Shown here piece after piece: positions 6,723 to 40,674 of a stretch of 40,674 nt of DNA. Below the pieces are notes generated by a model. The model saw only the letters and a list, made by a program, of their open reading frames with translations, had not been told where the DNA came from and did not search any database. A program made the translations under genes and the position numbers. This stretch comes from Bacteroidaceae bacterium (GTDB taxonomy: Bacteria > Bacteroidota > Bacteroidia > Bacteroidales > Bacteroidaceae), in NCBI GenBank assembly GCA_017552435.1, contig JAFZPZ010000020.1:1-40674 (forward strand). Direction: 5' to 3'. The first letter of the stretch is position 1, and each line of letters begins with the position of its first letter.

Positions 6723-8372
6723 TTAGTAATTCAATGGTGCCTGTGGGCAGGCATTGGGGGCACGGATACGAAGGGTCTGTGCTATAGTGGGGGCCACCTG
6801 GTCGATACTAACGGGTATGCGCACCTTTTCCGGTACAATGCCTGCGCCAAAGAAGAAGAGCGGGAAACTCAAGTAGGATTCACGACTGAGTGACTGTTCG
6901 TGTGTGTCTTCATTGTTGAGGACCCAGCCTGGAGATACCTGTATGAGAATGTCGCCCGAGCACTTCGGATTGTAGGCATTGCGCAGTTTGCTGATGCCGG
7001 GCGTCCAGGCTCCCAGGGCAAGTCGCTGACTAGTATAGACATCCTTTACGCCACTCAGTTGGATGAGGAAGGCACTGCAACGGTCGAGCACCTCTGCCAA
7101 ATTGAGATTGCGGTTCTCTATGAGCTTGAGGTTGAGGTAGAGCTGATTGTCGATAGCTGTCTCCACATAATTCCCCTGCCCGTATACGGCAATGAGGTAC
7201 ATGTTGAGCAATAACTGTGCCTTGCTAATAGAGAAGATGCCGGTGGGAATACGGTACTTGCTCAAATCCATCATCTCTTCTGAATCGAAGTAGCCTGTGC
7301 TGGTGATAATGAACAATGTCTTTTCCATGCCTACCTTCAGGTCCACGAAATCGAGGATTTCTTCCAGTTGTCGGTCCAGCCGGGCATATGTATCCTGCAT
7401 CTCCATGCCATACTGCATGGCCGATTGGTGGTCGTAGGCACCAGCATAATAGGTCAGCGTCAGCATGTCAGTCACGGCATCTGTACCAAGCCCTGCTTTC
7501 TCGATGGCTTCTTTGGCAAAGAGATTGATTTCGTCGTTGACGCAGGCCGTGGCTTTAAACTCTCGGAACTTACGATTGCTGTTGAATTTGTGGCTGAAAG
7601 GCTTGACCCTTTTCCCACCAGAAGATACAAAATACTGGAAACTTGCCACTTGGTCGTTGAGCGGCTGCCAATGGATATCGTCAATGCGACTTTCAAGCGA
7701 AGAACGGACATCATATTCTGTGGCCCAGTCAGGATAGTCGTCGTAGTAGCAGGTTGCAGCCCATTTGCCCGTCCAGTCATCGAGCCAGAATGCTTCGTTT
7801 CCAGCATGTCCGGCACCGAGGATGGCTGCTTCGCGTGTCGGAGCGATAGAATAGACAATGCTCTTTCCCTCGGAAGAAATCTTCAGCTCGTCGCCAATAG
7901 TTGAGACGGCCAAATGCTTGGGAGATGACTTCTCGCTTGTGTGGATGCCTGGATAGGTTTCGTCATCCACGCAGAAGACAGGCAGAAGAGTTTGACGGTC
8001 GAGCCAATGGCTGCCAACAATGCCGTTGACGTAAGGATTCGTGCCCGTCATCAGACATGCCATTGCAGAGGCACGGTCTGGAGAATTGAATGGATATTCT
8101 GCCTGTGAATAGAAACGTCCCTGTTCCTTAAGCCGTTGAAAACCTCCTTGACCATAAAGCGGTGTGAAGGCATCCAAATAATCGCTTCGCAACTGGTCGA
8201 TGACGATGTTCACCACCAACGAAGGCACCTGCGGTGCATCCTGGGCCTGTGCAACAATGGACACAGCCATGAAACAGGCAAGGAGAGATCCCCCGAACCC
8301 CTTTAGGGGGAGAGTACCTCCCCAACATCCTTTAGATGAATAATTTTTATCTTTTGTTTTTTCCTTTTTCAT
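6723..8372 (-). CDS. Alkaline-phosphatase-superfamily protein, probably catalytically degenerate
   Basis: A 549-residue exported protein. The hydrophobic core LLACFMAVSIVAQA acts as signal peptide. It is preceded by an unusual N-terminal stretch, KGCWGGTLPLKGFGG, which is encoded by a C-rich/G-rich dispersed repeat. The fold is that of type I phosphodiesterase/PafA-like enzymes: VNIVIDQLRSDY holds the first metal-ligand Asp, and MTGTNPYVNGIVGSHW and the C-terminal DQVAPTIAQTL are family hallmarks. However, the segment that is normally TGPGHAS reads NSPDRAS, and the usual TADHG metal motif reads ITSTGYF, so the nucleophile and key metal ligands appear lost. It overlaps the Lnb-like gene by 26 nt and is probably co-transcribed with it. 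The substrate is unknown, and a non-enzymatic role is possible. Confidence 0.8.
   Translation of the reverse strand: MKKEKTKDKNYSSKGCWGGTLPLKGFGGSLLACFMAVSIVAQAQDAPQVPSLVVNIVIDQLRSDYLDAFTPLYGQGGFQRLKEQGRFYSQAEYPFNSPDRASAMACLMTGTNPYVNGIVGSHWLDRQTLLPVFCVDDETYPGIHTSEKSSPKHLAVSTIGDELKISSEGKSIVYSIAPTREAAILGAGHAGNEAFWLDDWTGKWAATCYYDDYPDWATEYDVRSSLESRIDDIHWQPLNDQVASFQYFVSSGGKRVKPFSHKFNSNRKFREFKATACVNDEINLFAKEAIEKAGLGTDAVTDMLTLTYYAGAYDHQSAMQYGMEMQDTYARLDRQLEEILDFVDLKVGMEKTLFIITSTGYFDSEEMMDLSKYRIPTGIFSISKAQLLLNMYLIAVYGQGNYVETAIDNQLYLNLKLIENRNLNLAEVLDRCSAFLIQLSGVKDVYTSQRLALGAWTPGISKLRNAYNPKCSGDILIQVSPGWVLNNEDTHEQSLSRESYLSFPLFFFGAGIVPEKVRIPVSIDQVAPTIAQTLRIRAPNACPQAPLNY
8285..8335. repeat. C-rich/G-rich dispersed repeat inside a signal-peptide region
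   Basis: The segment contains CCCCCGAACCCCTTTAGGGG and then GTACCTCCCC, an imperfect palindrome. It encodes the odd N-terminal segment of the phosphatase-like protein. Related copies are at 8388-8410, 10486-10517 and 12417-12490. Confidence 0.6.
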
Positions 8373-34415: not shown

Positions 34416-34688
34416 TCAGTCTTCCAACAGTCCGATCTCCTGCCAGCTCTTCAGCAGCTTGCTGACACCTTTAAGCGCACGGTCGTAGTCCACCTCGTAC
34501 GTTTCACAGAGGGCATTTGCCAGTTGTTCTGGCGTGAAGTCGCCCAGTTCTTTTGCTTTCTTCCAGATTGTGGTGGCGGTTTCGTTCAGAGTAATCATTT
34601 TGCTGAAGTCAACCACTTCGATACCTTCTGCTACTATCACATTCTCGTCGAACACATCACGCAGCACAAATCCTTGTTTTTGTCTCAT
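34416..34688 (-). CDS. PqqD-family protein (peptide-recognition domain)
   Basis: A 90-residue protein that is one PqqD-like domain, a winged-helix fold that in RiPP pathways binds the leader of a precursor peptide and presents it to modifying enzymes. Family features are FDENVIVAEGIEVVDFSKMITLNETATTIWKK, then a Glu-rich helix, LANALCETYEVDYDRALKGVSKLLKSW and the ending IGLLED. It is divergent from an HprK-like kinase gene, with nearly identical mirrored promoters, so the two should be expressed together. No radical-SAM or cyclase gene lies in the window. Binding of a peptide substrate is an inference from the family. Confidence 0.85.
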   Translation of the reverse strand: MRQKQGFVLRDVFDENVIVAEGIEVVDFSKMITLNETATTIWKKAKELGDFTPEQLANALCETYEVDYDRALKGVSKLLKSWQEIGLLED

Positions 34689-34815: not shown

Positions 34816-35682
34816 ATGAAAGAATTATATTATAAGGTGGCAGGCCATGTGTTCGTATTCGACACCAACGGTTATGAAGGTGCCGCCGAGCAGCTGCAGC
34901 AATACGATGACTTTAAGACTGTCCCCACAGATGATACGATTTTCCGCTTACAACTCGTAGAGACATCGCTGGCTTCGGAAGAGTTCCATGAAGAAATTCG
35001 TCAGCAGGACGAAGGCCAGGAAATCGTCGTCGGTCATCTCCCTTCCGGAGACCCGTACTTTGAATTCTGGCTGGGCAGCAGACGCTCCTCGGTACTGGTG
35101 ACCACACCCGACTACCGTTCCGCTAAAATCAGTGTGGAGTCATCCTGGAAGTTCGGTGTGAACAATGCCATCATGATTCTGTATGCCCTGACCACAGCCA
35201 ACCTGCGTACGGCACTGTTCCACTCGTCGGTGGTCAGCTATCAGGGGCGTGGCTATATGTTCCTGGGAAAAAGCGGAACGGGCAAAAGCACACACTCCAG
35301 ACTTTGGCTGAAATATATCGAGGGCACGGAGCTGGTAAACGATGACAATCCTGTGGTTCGTATCTGCGATAACAACGAGGCTCGCGTCTATGGCTCGCCT
35401 TGGAGTGGCAAGACTCCCTGTTATCGAAACGTTGACTATCCCATTGGTGCCATTGTCAACCTGGAGCAGGCGCCCTATAACAACATCCGTCGCATGAAAG
35501 GTGTGAGAGCCTATGCTGCAATCGTGGCCTCCATCTCCGGCAAGCGATGGGACAGCCAGCTTGCCGACGGACTTCACAGGACGGAGAAACTCATTGTCGG
35601 ACTGGTGCCTGTCTGGCATCTGGAATGTTTGCCCGACGAAGCTGCTGCCCGTCTGTGTTGCACGACAACAGCTAACGGCTGA
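34816..35682 (+). CDS. HprK-like serine kinase-related protein
   Basis: A 288-residue protein with the C-terminal kinase fold of HPr kinase/PEP carboxykinase-like proteins. The Walker A loop is FLGKSGTGKSTHSRLW (about residues 149-164). The acidic pair in LVNDDNPVV (177-178) and GSPWSGKT (193-200) match the family; the His in FHSSVV (136) is also typical. It lacks the classical HprK N-terminal domain. Related proteins occur in lasso-peptide and other RiPP clusters, where one has been shown to phosphorylate the peptide. With the divergent PqqD-like gene this suggests a peptide-tailoring pair. The true substrate is unknown, and a metabolic kinase role cannot be excluded. Confidence 0.82.
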   Translation: MKELYYKVAGHVFVFDTNGYEGAAEQLQQYDDFKTVPTDDTIFRLQLVETSLASEEFHEEIRQQDEGQEIVVGHLPSGDPYFEFWLGSRRSSVLVTTPDYRSAKISVESSWKFGVNNAIMILYALTTANLRTALFHSSVVSYQGRGYMFLGKSGTGKSTHSRLWLKYIEGTELVNDDNPVVRICDNNEARVYGSPWSGKTPCYRNVDYPIGAIVNLEQAPYNNIRRMKGVRAYAAIVASISGKRWDSQLADGLHRTEKLIVGLVPVWHLECLPDEAAARLCCTTTANG

Positions 35683-35710: not shown

Positions 35711-35884
35711 GGGGTCACCTGCAAATTCCTGTGTGTAGGCTTATACAAAAACCACAAAAACCCTTTTCGTCTGGTCGAGACTACGTCTCTGATGCTATAA
35801 TAACAGACTATAACTCATGAGTAAACTCACAGTTATAGTCTGTTCTTATATCATCATCCTTACAGGAAATGACCAGACCAAAAG
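35711..35884 (+). ncRNA. Structured element E1: conserved head and four-way junction
   Basis: The head (35711-35768) contains TCA, TGCAAA, TGTGT, ACAAAAACC and AAAACCCTTTT in order, as in E2 and E3. The folded part is concentric on 35823. The outer stem pairs 35763-35776 with 35871-35884 (13 of 14). Arm 1 is GAGAC-TAC-GTCTC (35777-35789). The long arm (35790-35856) has 28 bp with two single mismatches and one small internal loop, and a TAAA loop at 35822-35825. Arm 3 is TCCT-TAC-AGGA (35857-35867). It starts 28 nt after the kinase stop. It could be a 3' RNA element or a DNA mobile or recombination element. Transcription is not shown. Confidence 0.65.
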
Positions 35885-35906
35885 AAAAACCGAAAAAACA
35901 TTTTCA

Positions 35907-35938
35907 TTTACTATTTACGATTTATCTCTCATTTATCA
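35907..35938. repeat. Heptad-period tract between E1 and E2
   Basis: ATTTACT, ATTTACG, ATTTATC, a 4-nt interruption TCTC, then ATTTATC. Confidence 0.65.
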
Positions 35939-35976
35939 TTTAGAGCTTCACCTGCAAGGTGGTTTTTAATGTTCGC

Positions 35977-36012
35977 GGATGCTTTAGCACCACGGCGCGA
36001 TTGTAGTCGCGG
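35977..36012. repeat. Palindromic repeat unit with a GATGCTTTAGCAC core
   Basis: TGCTTTAGCA is followed by CGCGA-TTGTAG-TCGCG and then a T-rich stretch (TTTTTCTTTTT), so the unit could end transcription. It is related to 21728-21763 by the same core and layout with changed but still pairing stem bases. Confidence 0.55.
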
Positions 36013-36017
36013 TTTTT

Positions 36018-36198
36018 CTTTTTCTGGTGTTTTAGCCGTAAGGCTGTTTTCGATATGTCTGGCAGAGAAGGGAAGTTTACTTGGATTCTCTGACAGACAG
36101 ATTGAAAAACGTGTGAGTGTAACTCATAAACACCAGAAAAAGGGTTTTCTTTGGTTTTTGTTTAAATCAGACACAGAGTTTTGCAAGTGAGCCATTTT
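36018..36198 (-). ncRNA. Structured element E2: conserved head and four-way junction
   Basis: In minus orientation the head is 36198-36137, directly following the GNAT stop codon. The outer stem pairs 36018-36032 with 36128-36142 (15 of 15). The arms, in plus coordinates, are AGCC-GTAA-GGCT (36034-36045), a long arm (36047-36108) of 24 bp with two single mismatches and an AAG-TTTA-CTT tip, and TGAGT-GTA-ACTCA (36114-36126). Read on the minus strand the loops are TAC, TAAA and TTAC in the same order as E1, while the stem sequences differ. E1 and E2 face each other, with 133 nt between them. Confidence 0.65.
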
Positions 36199-40510: not shown

Positions 40511-40674
40511 AAAACGGCTCATTTGCAAAACTTTGTGTCTGATTTAAACAAAAACCTGAGAAAACCCTTTTTGAAAGCTTTGTCACTACGTGCCTCTGTT
40601 CTGTCATCGTCATGAATCTGGTCGTAATCAAGCTTCCGCCATCTTCCTGCCGATAACAGAACATATTCTAACGA
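40511..40674 (+). ncRNA. Structured element E3, partial at the window end
   Basis: The head (40511-40572) matches the E2 head over 62 nt with about five differences, in inverted orientation. It is followed by a small CAC-TAC-GTG hairpin (40584-40592) and the base of a long arm, TGTTCTGTCATCG (40597-40609) with CGATAACAGAACA (40651-40663), 12 of 13 paired. A TAAA tip is not evident here. The closing half would lie beyond the window. Confidence 0.55.

Follow-up and report, generated by a model that had tools for sequence, protein, structure and literature searches.

The window analysed here, a stretch of 40,674 nucleotides from a Bacteroidaceae genome, holds two folded elements, E1 (35711-35884, plus strand) and E2 (36018-36198, minus strand), and raises the question of what they are and whether they belong together. 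A first-pass annotation, made from the letters alone, described them as two separate elements with a common ordered head, and the two heads indeed aligned as a common sequence. Its coordinates and folds were borne out on recomputation: minimum free energy was -61.4 for E1 (z -8.9) and -50.1 for E2 (z -6.4), and none of 200 shuffled versions of either element folded equally well. The outer stems again showed 13 of 14 paired positions in E1 and 15 of 15 in E2. The long arm of E1 had the 28 pairs reported, and that of E2 had 23, not 24. The hairpin loops follow the order TAC/TAAA/TAC in E1 and TAC/TAAA/TTAC in E2, so that loop conservation holds for this pair; across the family only the general loop type is kept, with loci L005 and L006 and other sequence types differing. 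Both elements lie directly after stop codons here, a position that is no rule for the family, whose units are found between genes in all orientations. In agreement with the earlier remark that no Rfam family has this layout, no match in the whole window reached its gathering score, and the 12 matches obtained at E up to 10 between 35600 and 36300 were all far under the gathering score of their own family. A third module with the same head, E3 (40516-40674, plus strand), had been overlooked.

Coordinates of the features of the window, and loci of one motif found outside it.
Feature	Position	Strand	Basis
Left head, outer inverted repeat of the unit, diverged copy of GGCTCACTTGCAAAACTCTGTGTCTGATTTAA	35711..35744	+	alignment with E2 head
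DR1 of module E1, ACAAAAACCACAAAAACCC	35745..35763	+	conserved direct-repeat motif
Folded body of E1, outer stem closing three arms	35763..35884	-	better-folding strand is window minus
DR2 of module E1, AAGAAAAACCGAAAAAAC	35882..35899	+	direct-repeat motif
Spacer separating modules E1 and E2	35900..36010		comparison with C105 copy
Repeat of ~42 bp common in the genus, inserted at E2-side DR2/spacer	35971..36012		copies 86-98% identical in many genomes
Folded body of E2	36018..36142	+	better-folding strand for E2 is window plus
DR1 of module E2	36142..36162	-	direct-repeat motif
Right head, outer inverted repeat	36163..36193	-	head alignment and head-motif search
Head of third module, E3	40516..40547	+	head-motif search
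DR1 and start of body of E3, cut by contig end	40548..40674	+	model R1, 36.5 bits, cut off 3'
Motif ACAATAAT	L214, L215, L217, L160, L115, L082, L096		read by eye

Each module consists of a folded body of ~115-125 nt bracketed by two direct repeats, DR1 (AACAAAAACCnnnAAAACCC; also given as AACAAAAACCnnnAAAAC) and DR2 (AAGAAAAACCnnGAAAAC). A unit reads head, DR1, four-way-junction body, DR2 and spacer, and continues with an inverted series of the same parts, in which the body has another sequence. The pairing of modules was counted over 100 modules, namely locus L005 and the 99 kept from 127 matches after removal of same-locus duplicates, antisense matches, short weak matches and the truncated E3. 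Adjacent modules no more than 300 bp apart were convergent in 33 of 37 cases, divergent in three and oriented the same way in one, counts that are partly non-independent because the same locus recurs in two related genomes (L091/L094, L090/L093). Different sequence types were joined in 33/35 of all convergent pairs. A later search added 25 modules, giving 125, and 70 were left once those at least 85% alike had been removed.

DR1 stands inverted at both ends of the unit and forms its terminal inverted repeats. Outside DR1, an inverted head is present in several lineages; its sequence is lineage-specific and it is not visible in all pairs. Over the outer 30 bp of 40 pairs, mean likeness was 0.32 against 0.30 after shuffling (reached in 51 of 500 shuffles), and there was thus no excess on average. 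The head of the window elements occurs with at most three mismatches at E2, at E3 and on contigs C105 and C113. On C105, in the same genome, a copy is 83% identical to window positions 35877-36193, which comprise DR2, spacer, E2 and head; E1/E2 is therefore a dispersed unit rather than two local elements. Together with the excess of convergent pairs, this overturns the description of E1 and E2 as separate: they are the two inverted ends of one unit. Locus L191 in genome G139 bears a further unit, to which copies at four loci in two related genomes are 92-99% identical wherever they cover it. These copies start at L191 positions 1827-1831, at or within 5 bp of the head start at 1832.

Three observations on arrangement may be added. 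A GC-rich repeat of ~42 bp (GCGGATGCTTTAGCACCACGGCGCGATTGTAGTCGCGG and variants), which belongs to a separate repeat family, interrupts the E1/E2 spacer at 35971-36012 and is missing from the C105 copy as read by eye. Locus L087 (contig C20 of genome G017) is an array of modules of ~13 kb, in which one module type has different partners at different places. At L097 (contig C64 of genome G151, 7480-8210), an inverted repeat of ~90-100 bp lies on the outer sides of a module pair.

The first-pass annotation had read selection on structure from the compensated stems of E1 and E2. This was examined in 52 diverse modules with a mean column identity of 49%, folded on the strand used in that annotation (hereafter the reader's strand). 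All 52 had an outer stem of at least eight pairs, and the median z was -5.5, with two modules above -3. Branches within the outer stem, counted and not matched arm by arm, numbered exactly three in 41 modules, one in nine, two in one and four in one. At the ten aligned outer-stem pairs, 85.2% of cells were paired against 57.3% after shuffling, double changes affected 152 cells against 50.1, and the covariation score was 0.665 against 0.180, none of these values being reached in 500 shuffles. All ten pairs showed some double change, against 8.0 in the shuffled sets (9/500). Controls with slid partners paired in 41-52% of cells, a comparison that favours the unslid version, as the stem pairs were picked by RNAalifold on the same alignment. 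These results show strong compensatory change in the outer stem and back the earlier claim of selection on structure.

The complement of the reader's strand folded better in 67 of the 70 non-redundant modules (mean -55.3 against -44.7 kcal/mol), and likewise in 67/70 with DNA folding parameters. The complement is therefore probably the selected strand, and the orientation first given to E1 and E2 as functional is not supported. In folds restricted to Watson-Crick pairs, single mismatches on the complement strand were mostly A.G (85), G.T (61), G.G (32) and A.A (26); A.C (16), C.T (3), C.C (1) and T.T (1) were rarer. The strand bias was modest in the outer stem taken alone, where the 520 cells on the reader's strand were Watson-Crick in 426 cases, pyrimidine-pyrimidine in 38, A.C in 25, G.T in 17 and purine-purine in 14. 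RNase P RNA of the same genus (n=30, each cut out around a sequence motif) served as control: the RNA strand folded better in 29 of 30 sequences and showed a like mismatch bias. The share of G-U pairs was 10.2% on the better strand of the modules against 2.7% on its complement, and 13.2% against 10.4% for RNase P. Thus, one strand of the module is probably read as a folded single strand. Among modules with exactly three hairpins, to which the loop tables were limited (44/70 and 42/70), the better strand mostly carries G-N-A triloops on the two short arms and loops of the C-T-T-G or T-T-T-A type on the long arm. The triloops and purine mismatches might suggest single-stranded DNA as the acting strand, but since RNase P shows the same mismatches and a similar G-U share, they do not favour DNA over RNA.

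Further copies were sought with a covariance model, as the first-pass annotation had proposed, here built from six copies. In the window's own genome the head pattern is present at six places, and the model gave at least 12 matches there. At least 50 of the 139 genomes surveyed from the genus carried modules, and the richest genome had at least 22 (best 22 candidates per genome scored, with stricter filters). In a wider survey, the best seven candidates per genome were taken at E up to 1e-4, and the window's genome gave seven matches instead of the earlier 12. Because a limited number of candidates was scored per genome, module and genome counts are lower bounds and absences are soft. Outside the genus, modules were found among the best seven candidates in at least two of 392 other genomes sampled from the order, belonging to two other families; one of the two also has a convergent pair (L203). 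The family thus looks rare outside the genus. In a public genome collection, the head pattern was present in 42 stretches, and in 24 of them a module scored 40 bits or more. These 24 all lie in records named as Bacteroidales groups, several of them from animal rumen, stomach or faeces. Among viral contigs the pattern occurs once. Contigs C35, C65, C103 and C105 of the window's genome end in modules or within ~350 bp of them, as expected if repeats break the assembly. The modules give an identity to repeats that terminate a number of contigs in these assemblies.

In complete copies of the unit, the convergent module pair flanks one GxxExxY gene lying in the spacer, which encodes a small enzyme predicted to cut DNA or RNA (~150 aa, with D...ExK residues intact). 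The strength of this linkage was assessed by a protein search of the 139 genomes that was blind to modules, in which proteins at least 50% identical to the GxxExxY protein of L033 were called gx-type. Twelve gx-type genes were found in 10 genomes, and a module lies within 150 bp of 11 of them. Six (L212, L226, L213, L214, L215 and L217) have convergent modules on their two sides; at L214 the contig end truncates the right-hand one. One module was seen at L216, where 81 bp of contig precede the matched gene, and one at L227, where it is cut by the contig start and the gene reads in two frames. The genes at L219, L220 and L221 also lie between modules, in orientations other than convergent, owing to additional pairs at these loci. 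At L218, the gene is interrupted by a stop and has no module. All 10 genomes with a gx-type gene carry modules, against 50/139 overall (P 2e-5). Among the 11 genomes with at least 10 modules, six, including that of the window, have no gx-type gene assembled, these assemblies being incomplete; in the window's genome, only fragments of one were seen, within the opening 500 bp of contigs C103 and C105.

Other GxxExxY genes of the genus were considered as carriers of the same module and rejected, since only 2/70 lie within 150 bp and 4/70 within 300 bp of one; these 70 genes (L100-L169) comprise the 30 best matches and 40 picked by hand, at least one of them (L160) for a known nearby module. The GxxExxY family itself is widespread, TIGR04256 being present in 87 of the 139 genomes. 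Four GxxExxY proteins, three of gx-type and one other, matched TIGR04256 and PF13366 with 96-116 bits against cut-offs of 35 and 22, and residues D90, E100 and K102 were invariant across 21 aligned proteins. A structure model of the gx protein built from four sequences was of middling confidence (pLDDT 62, pTM 0.58). Compared with the PDB, it matched one chain at better than E 0.001, SSO0001, which we take to be a Cas4; other nucleases of the superfamily were among the weak matches. A sequence search of the PDB gave two matches at E 0.02, neither credible. No promoter of the Bacteroidetes type TAnnTTTG preceded the gx gene in any of the seven units whose 5' spacers were read. The GxxExxY name appears in PMC8934634 and PMC12085832. 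Literature searches found no role assigned to the GxxExxY family, no paper naming PDDEXK_3 and no report of the folded-module family.

Several matching sites differ in their bodies. L091 and L188, from two related genomes, are 92.7% identical over 110 bp to the left of the module and 98.3% over 300 bp to the right of the unit; their bodies are 72.0% identical against a shuffled mean of 71.7% by the same gapped measure. L212 and L226, two copies in genome G006, have a module before the unit with an identical DR2-side flank (29 bp) and an outer flank at 100% (59 aligned bases), and bodies that are unrelated (72.3% against 72.8% shuffled). A single direct repeat without body is found at L084 (1497) and L088 (3907, 4027 and 4241). 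Some sites that otherwise match thus lack the body or carry an unrelated one in its place. Body loss could be plain slippage between direct repeats.

The flanking duplications and strain differences that the first-pass annotation had proposed for inspection were examined as well. At DR1, the mean best match for a target-site duplication was 1.9 against 2.2 after shuffling, with no excess over 40 pairs; six others, of 46 in all, had been excluded for a short flank or because DR1 was recognised at fewer than two ends. No duplication was seen by eye outside the heads. Comparison of L183/L182, L196/L198 and L091/L188, and of L191 and L194 in genomes G084 and G074, gave no clean pair of filled and empty sites, the intergenic DNA being rearranged or unalignable in the cases tried. 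A difference in presence was seen between L198, which has a unit, and L196, which has none. The L198 unit lies at the very end of a gene and, as read by eye, appears to supply new C-terminal codons and a stop.

Dispersal, inverted pairing, a strand-biased conserved fold, linkage to one gene subfamily and loss or exchange of bodies at direct repeats were all observed directly. Their best reading is a small mobile-like element with folded ends that exists both as complete copies with the gene and as copies without it. E1 and E2 are, on balance, probably the inverted folded ends of one gene-less copy of it. This agrees with one of the options first listed, a recombination or transposition substrate. 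The explanation is weakened because no target-site duplication and no clean empty site were found and 6/11 of the richest genomes have no assembled gx gene; the three gx genes amid modules of other orientation, the interrupted L218 gene without module and the pLDDT of the fold model also count against it.

A mechanism may be proposed on this basis. The predicted GxxExxY nuclease would recognise the folded module on one strand, which may be either single-stranded DNA or an RNA forming the 3' end of the gene's transcript. Cutting would take place at the direct repeats that border the base of the fold, whether in cis or in trans, and could lead to excision, exchange or copying of bodies and whole units. 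Gene-less units such as E1/E2 would then be passengers moved in trans. Unlike modules might be paired because two like ones would form a long perfect palindrome, which is unstable. In its most specific form, the proposal is a minimal mobile element with exchangeable end bodies, whose 150-aa PD-(D/E)XK GxxExxY nuclease acts on the four-way-junction strand of its own ends, either as a nuclease specific for junctions in single-stranded DNA or together with a structured RNA of its own, supplied by the 3' part of its transcript. We put this form forward tentatively, as a possibility less probable than not. If true, it would be the first mechanism for the GxxExxY family and a possible route to mobility without a known transposase. 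The link of one GxxExxY subfamily to a conserved fold already provides a candidate substrate for the enzyme, and this little-understood gene family may here be part of an unrecognised mobile system.

Other explanations account for part of these data. The modules could be inert repeats shaped by recombination, with bodies spread by gene conversion and segmental duplication and the GxxExxY gene as cargo; body exchange inside matching flanks, the duplicated segments in G006 and the shared flanks in G139 are consistent with this. However, drift would not maintain compensated stems across types at 49% mean column identity, nor does it explain why one GxxExxY subfamily lies between modules, and we regard this explanation as unlikely. 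A host 3'-UTR RNA or bidirectional terminator, with modules at host gene ends and convergent pairs serving convergent genes, appears quite unlikely, in spite of the stop codons of convergent genes that precede E1 and E2, the T-rich DR1 in which the complement of each module ends and the RNA-like G-U share of the better strand. With a simple ORF caller, 40 paired units lay in 18 plus-strand tandem, six minus-strand tandem, eight convergent, four divergent and four undetermined contexts, and intergenic gaps of 200-900 bp at the same loci in 25, 20, 19 and 10 of the first four kinds; there is thus no convergent excess. Moreover, the better-folding strand runs away from the unit centre, antisense to the gene ending there, and occurrence is patchy (50/139 genomes). 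Gene orientation thus gives no backing to a 3'-UTR regulator or terminator as a rule, and the option of a 3' regulatory RNA tied to stop codons was set aside.

Inverted pairs of folded repeats without detectable target-site duplication would also suit a REPIN-like element moved on single-stranded DNA by a Y1 (HUH) transposase of the RAYT or IS200-IS605 type. Y1_Tnp matches, however, were found in 21/50 module-bearing against 41/89 other genomes (Fisher P 0.72), none was found in the incomplete genome of the window, and among the 11 richest genomes three gave a match, which in two fell short of the curated cut-off. These absences are not final because the assemblies are incomplete; Y1/HUH mobilisation was rejected for want of co-occurrence with modules, and we consider it very unlikely. 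Sites like integron attC, or another tyrosine-recombinase cassette system, would likewise combine folded sites, in which shape and strand preference persist while stems change, with bodies swapped between direct repeats. The modules form inverted pairs instead of tandem cassettes, and judged by this layout such a system seems highly improbable.

The preferred reading, a small mobile-like element with folded ends, may be compared with known systems. REPINs (RAYT, TnpA-REP) are built of palindromes of 20-40 nt tagged GTAG or CGTC with a linked Y1 transposase. In its working, the element resembles this type most: both have inverted pairs of folded repeats, gene-less copies with a separate enzyme gene, and no target-site duplication found. 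In contrast, the module here is ~150 nt long with a four-way junction, an outer stem and usually three branches, not a hairpin of 20-40 nt; paired modules mostly differ in sequence; and the linked gene is GxxExxY (PD-(D/E)XK), not a Y1 transposase. We did not class the element as a REPIN, because no link to Y1 was found and the repeat is of another size and shape. IS200/IS605 elements with TnpB and omega-RNA, and their gene-less derivatives, offer a possible parallel, in that a structured single strand following a small nuclease gene overlaps the end of the element; here, however, there is no association with TnpA (Y1), the nuclease is from another superfamily, modules stand at both ends and no guide sequence was seen. 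Like MITEs, the units are short, gene-less, dispersed, bounded by inverted termini and kin to longer gene-bearing copies, but they differ in their long folded ends and in that no target-site duplication was found. The intervening sequences of 23S rRNA also combine a small ORF with folded flanks and a scattered distribution, whereas the window unit lies between protein genes and no rRNA was found in the window; a literature search found no paper linking Bacteroidetes 23S rRNA intervening sequences with mobile elements. Integron attC sites share the kept shape with changing stems and the strand asymmetry, and lack the inverted pairs and three-armed fold seen here.

Some minor features of the surrounding genes were also recorded. 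Ordinary GxxExxY genes at L103, L110, L112, L125, L126, L131, L139 and L167 lie in degenerate word-repeat DNA (e.g. CTCTGCGCTCTTCGCGTAATCTGCGTG), which often recurs inverted on both sides and folds strongly; judging from these loci, GxxExxY genes may be associated with inverted folded flanks in general. Upstream of the GxxExxY gene of another subfamily at L160 (1700-2000) is a long fold with an outer stem of 18 bp and several arms, without the usual direct-repeat motifs, which is possibly a divergent module. The motif ACAATAAT was seen by eye upstream of several GxxExxY genes and also in some spacers without an intact gene, which suggests that gene-less units may be internal deletions. In the window itself, a PqqD-like ORF (34416-34688, minus strand) neighbours a plus-strand ORF (34816-35682) whose match to HPr-kinase-C is sub-threshold; together they could represent a peptide-modification context.
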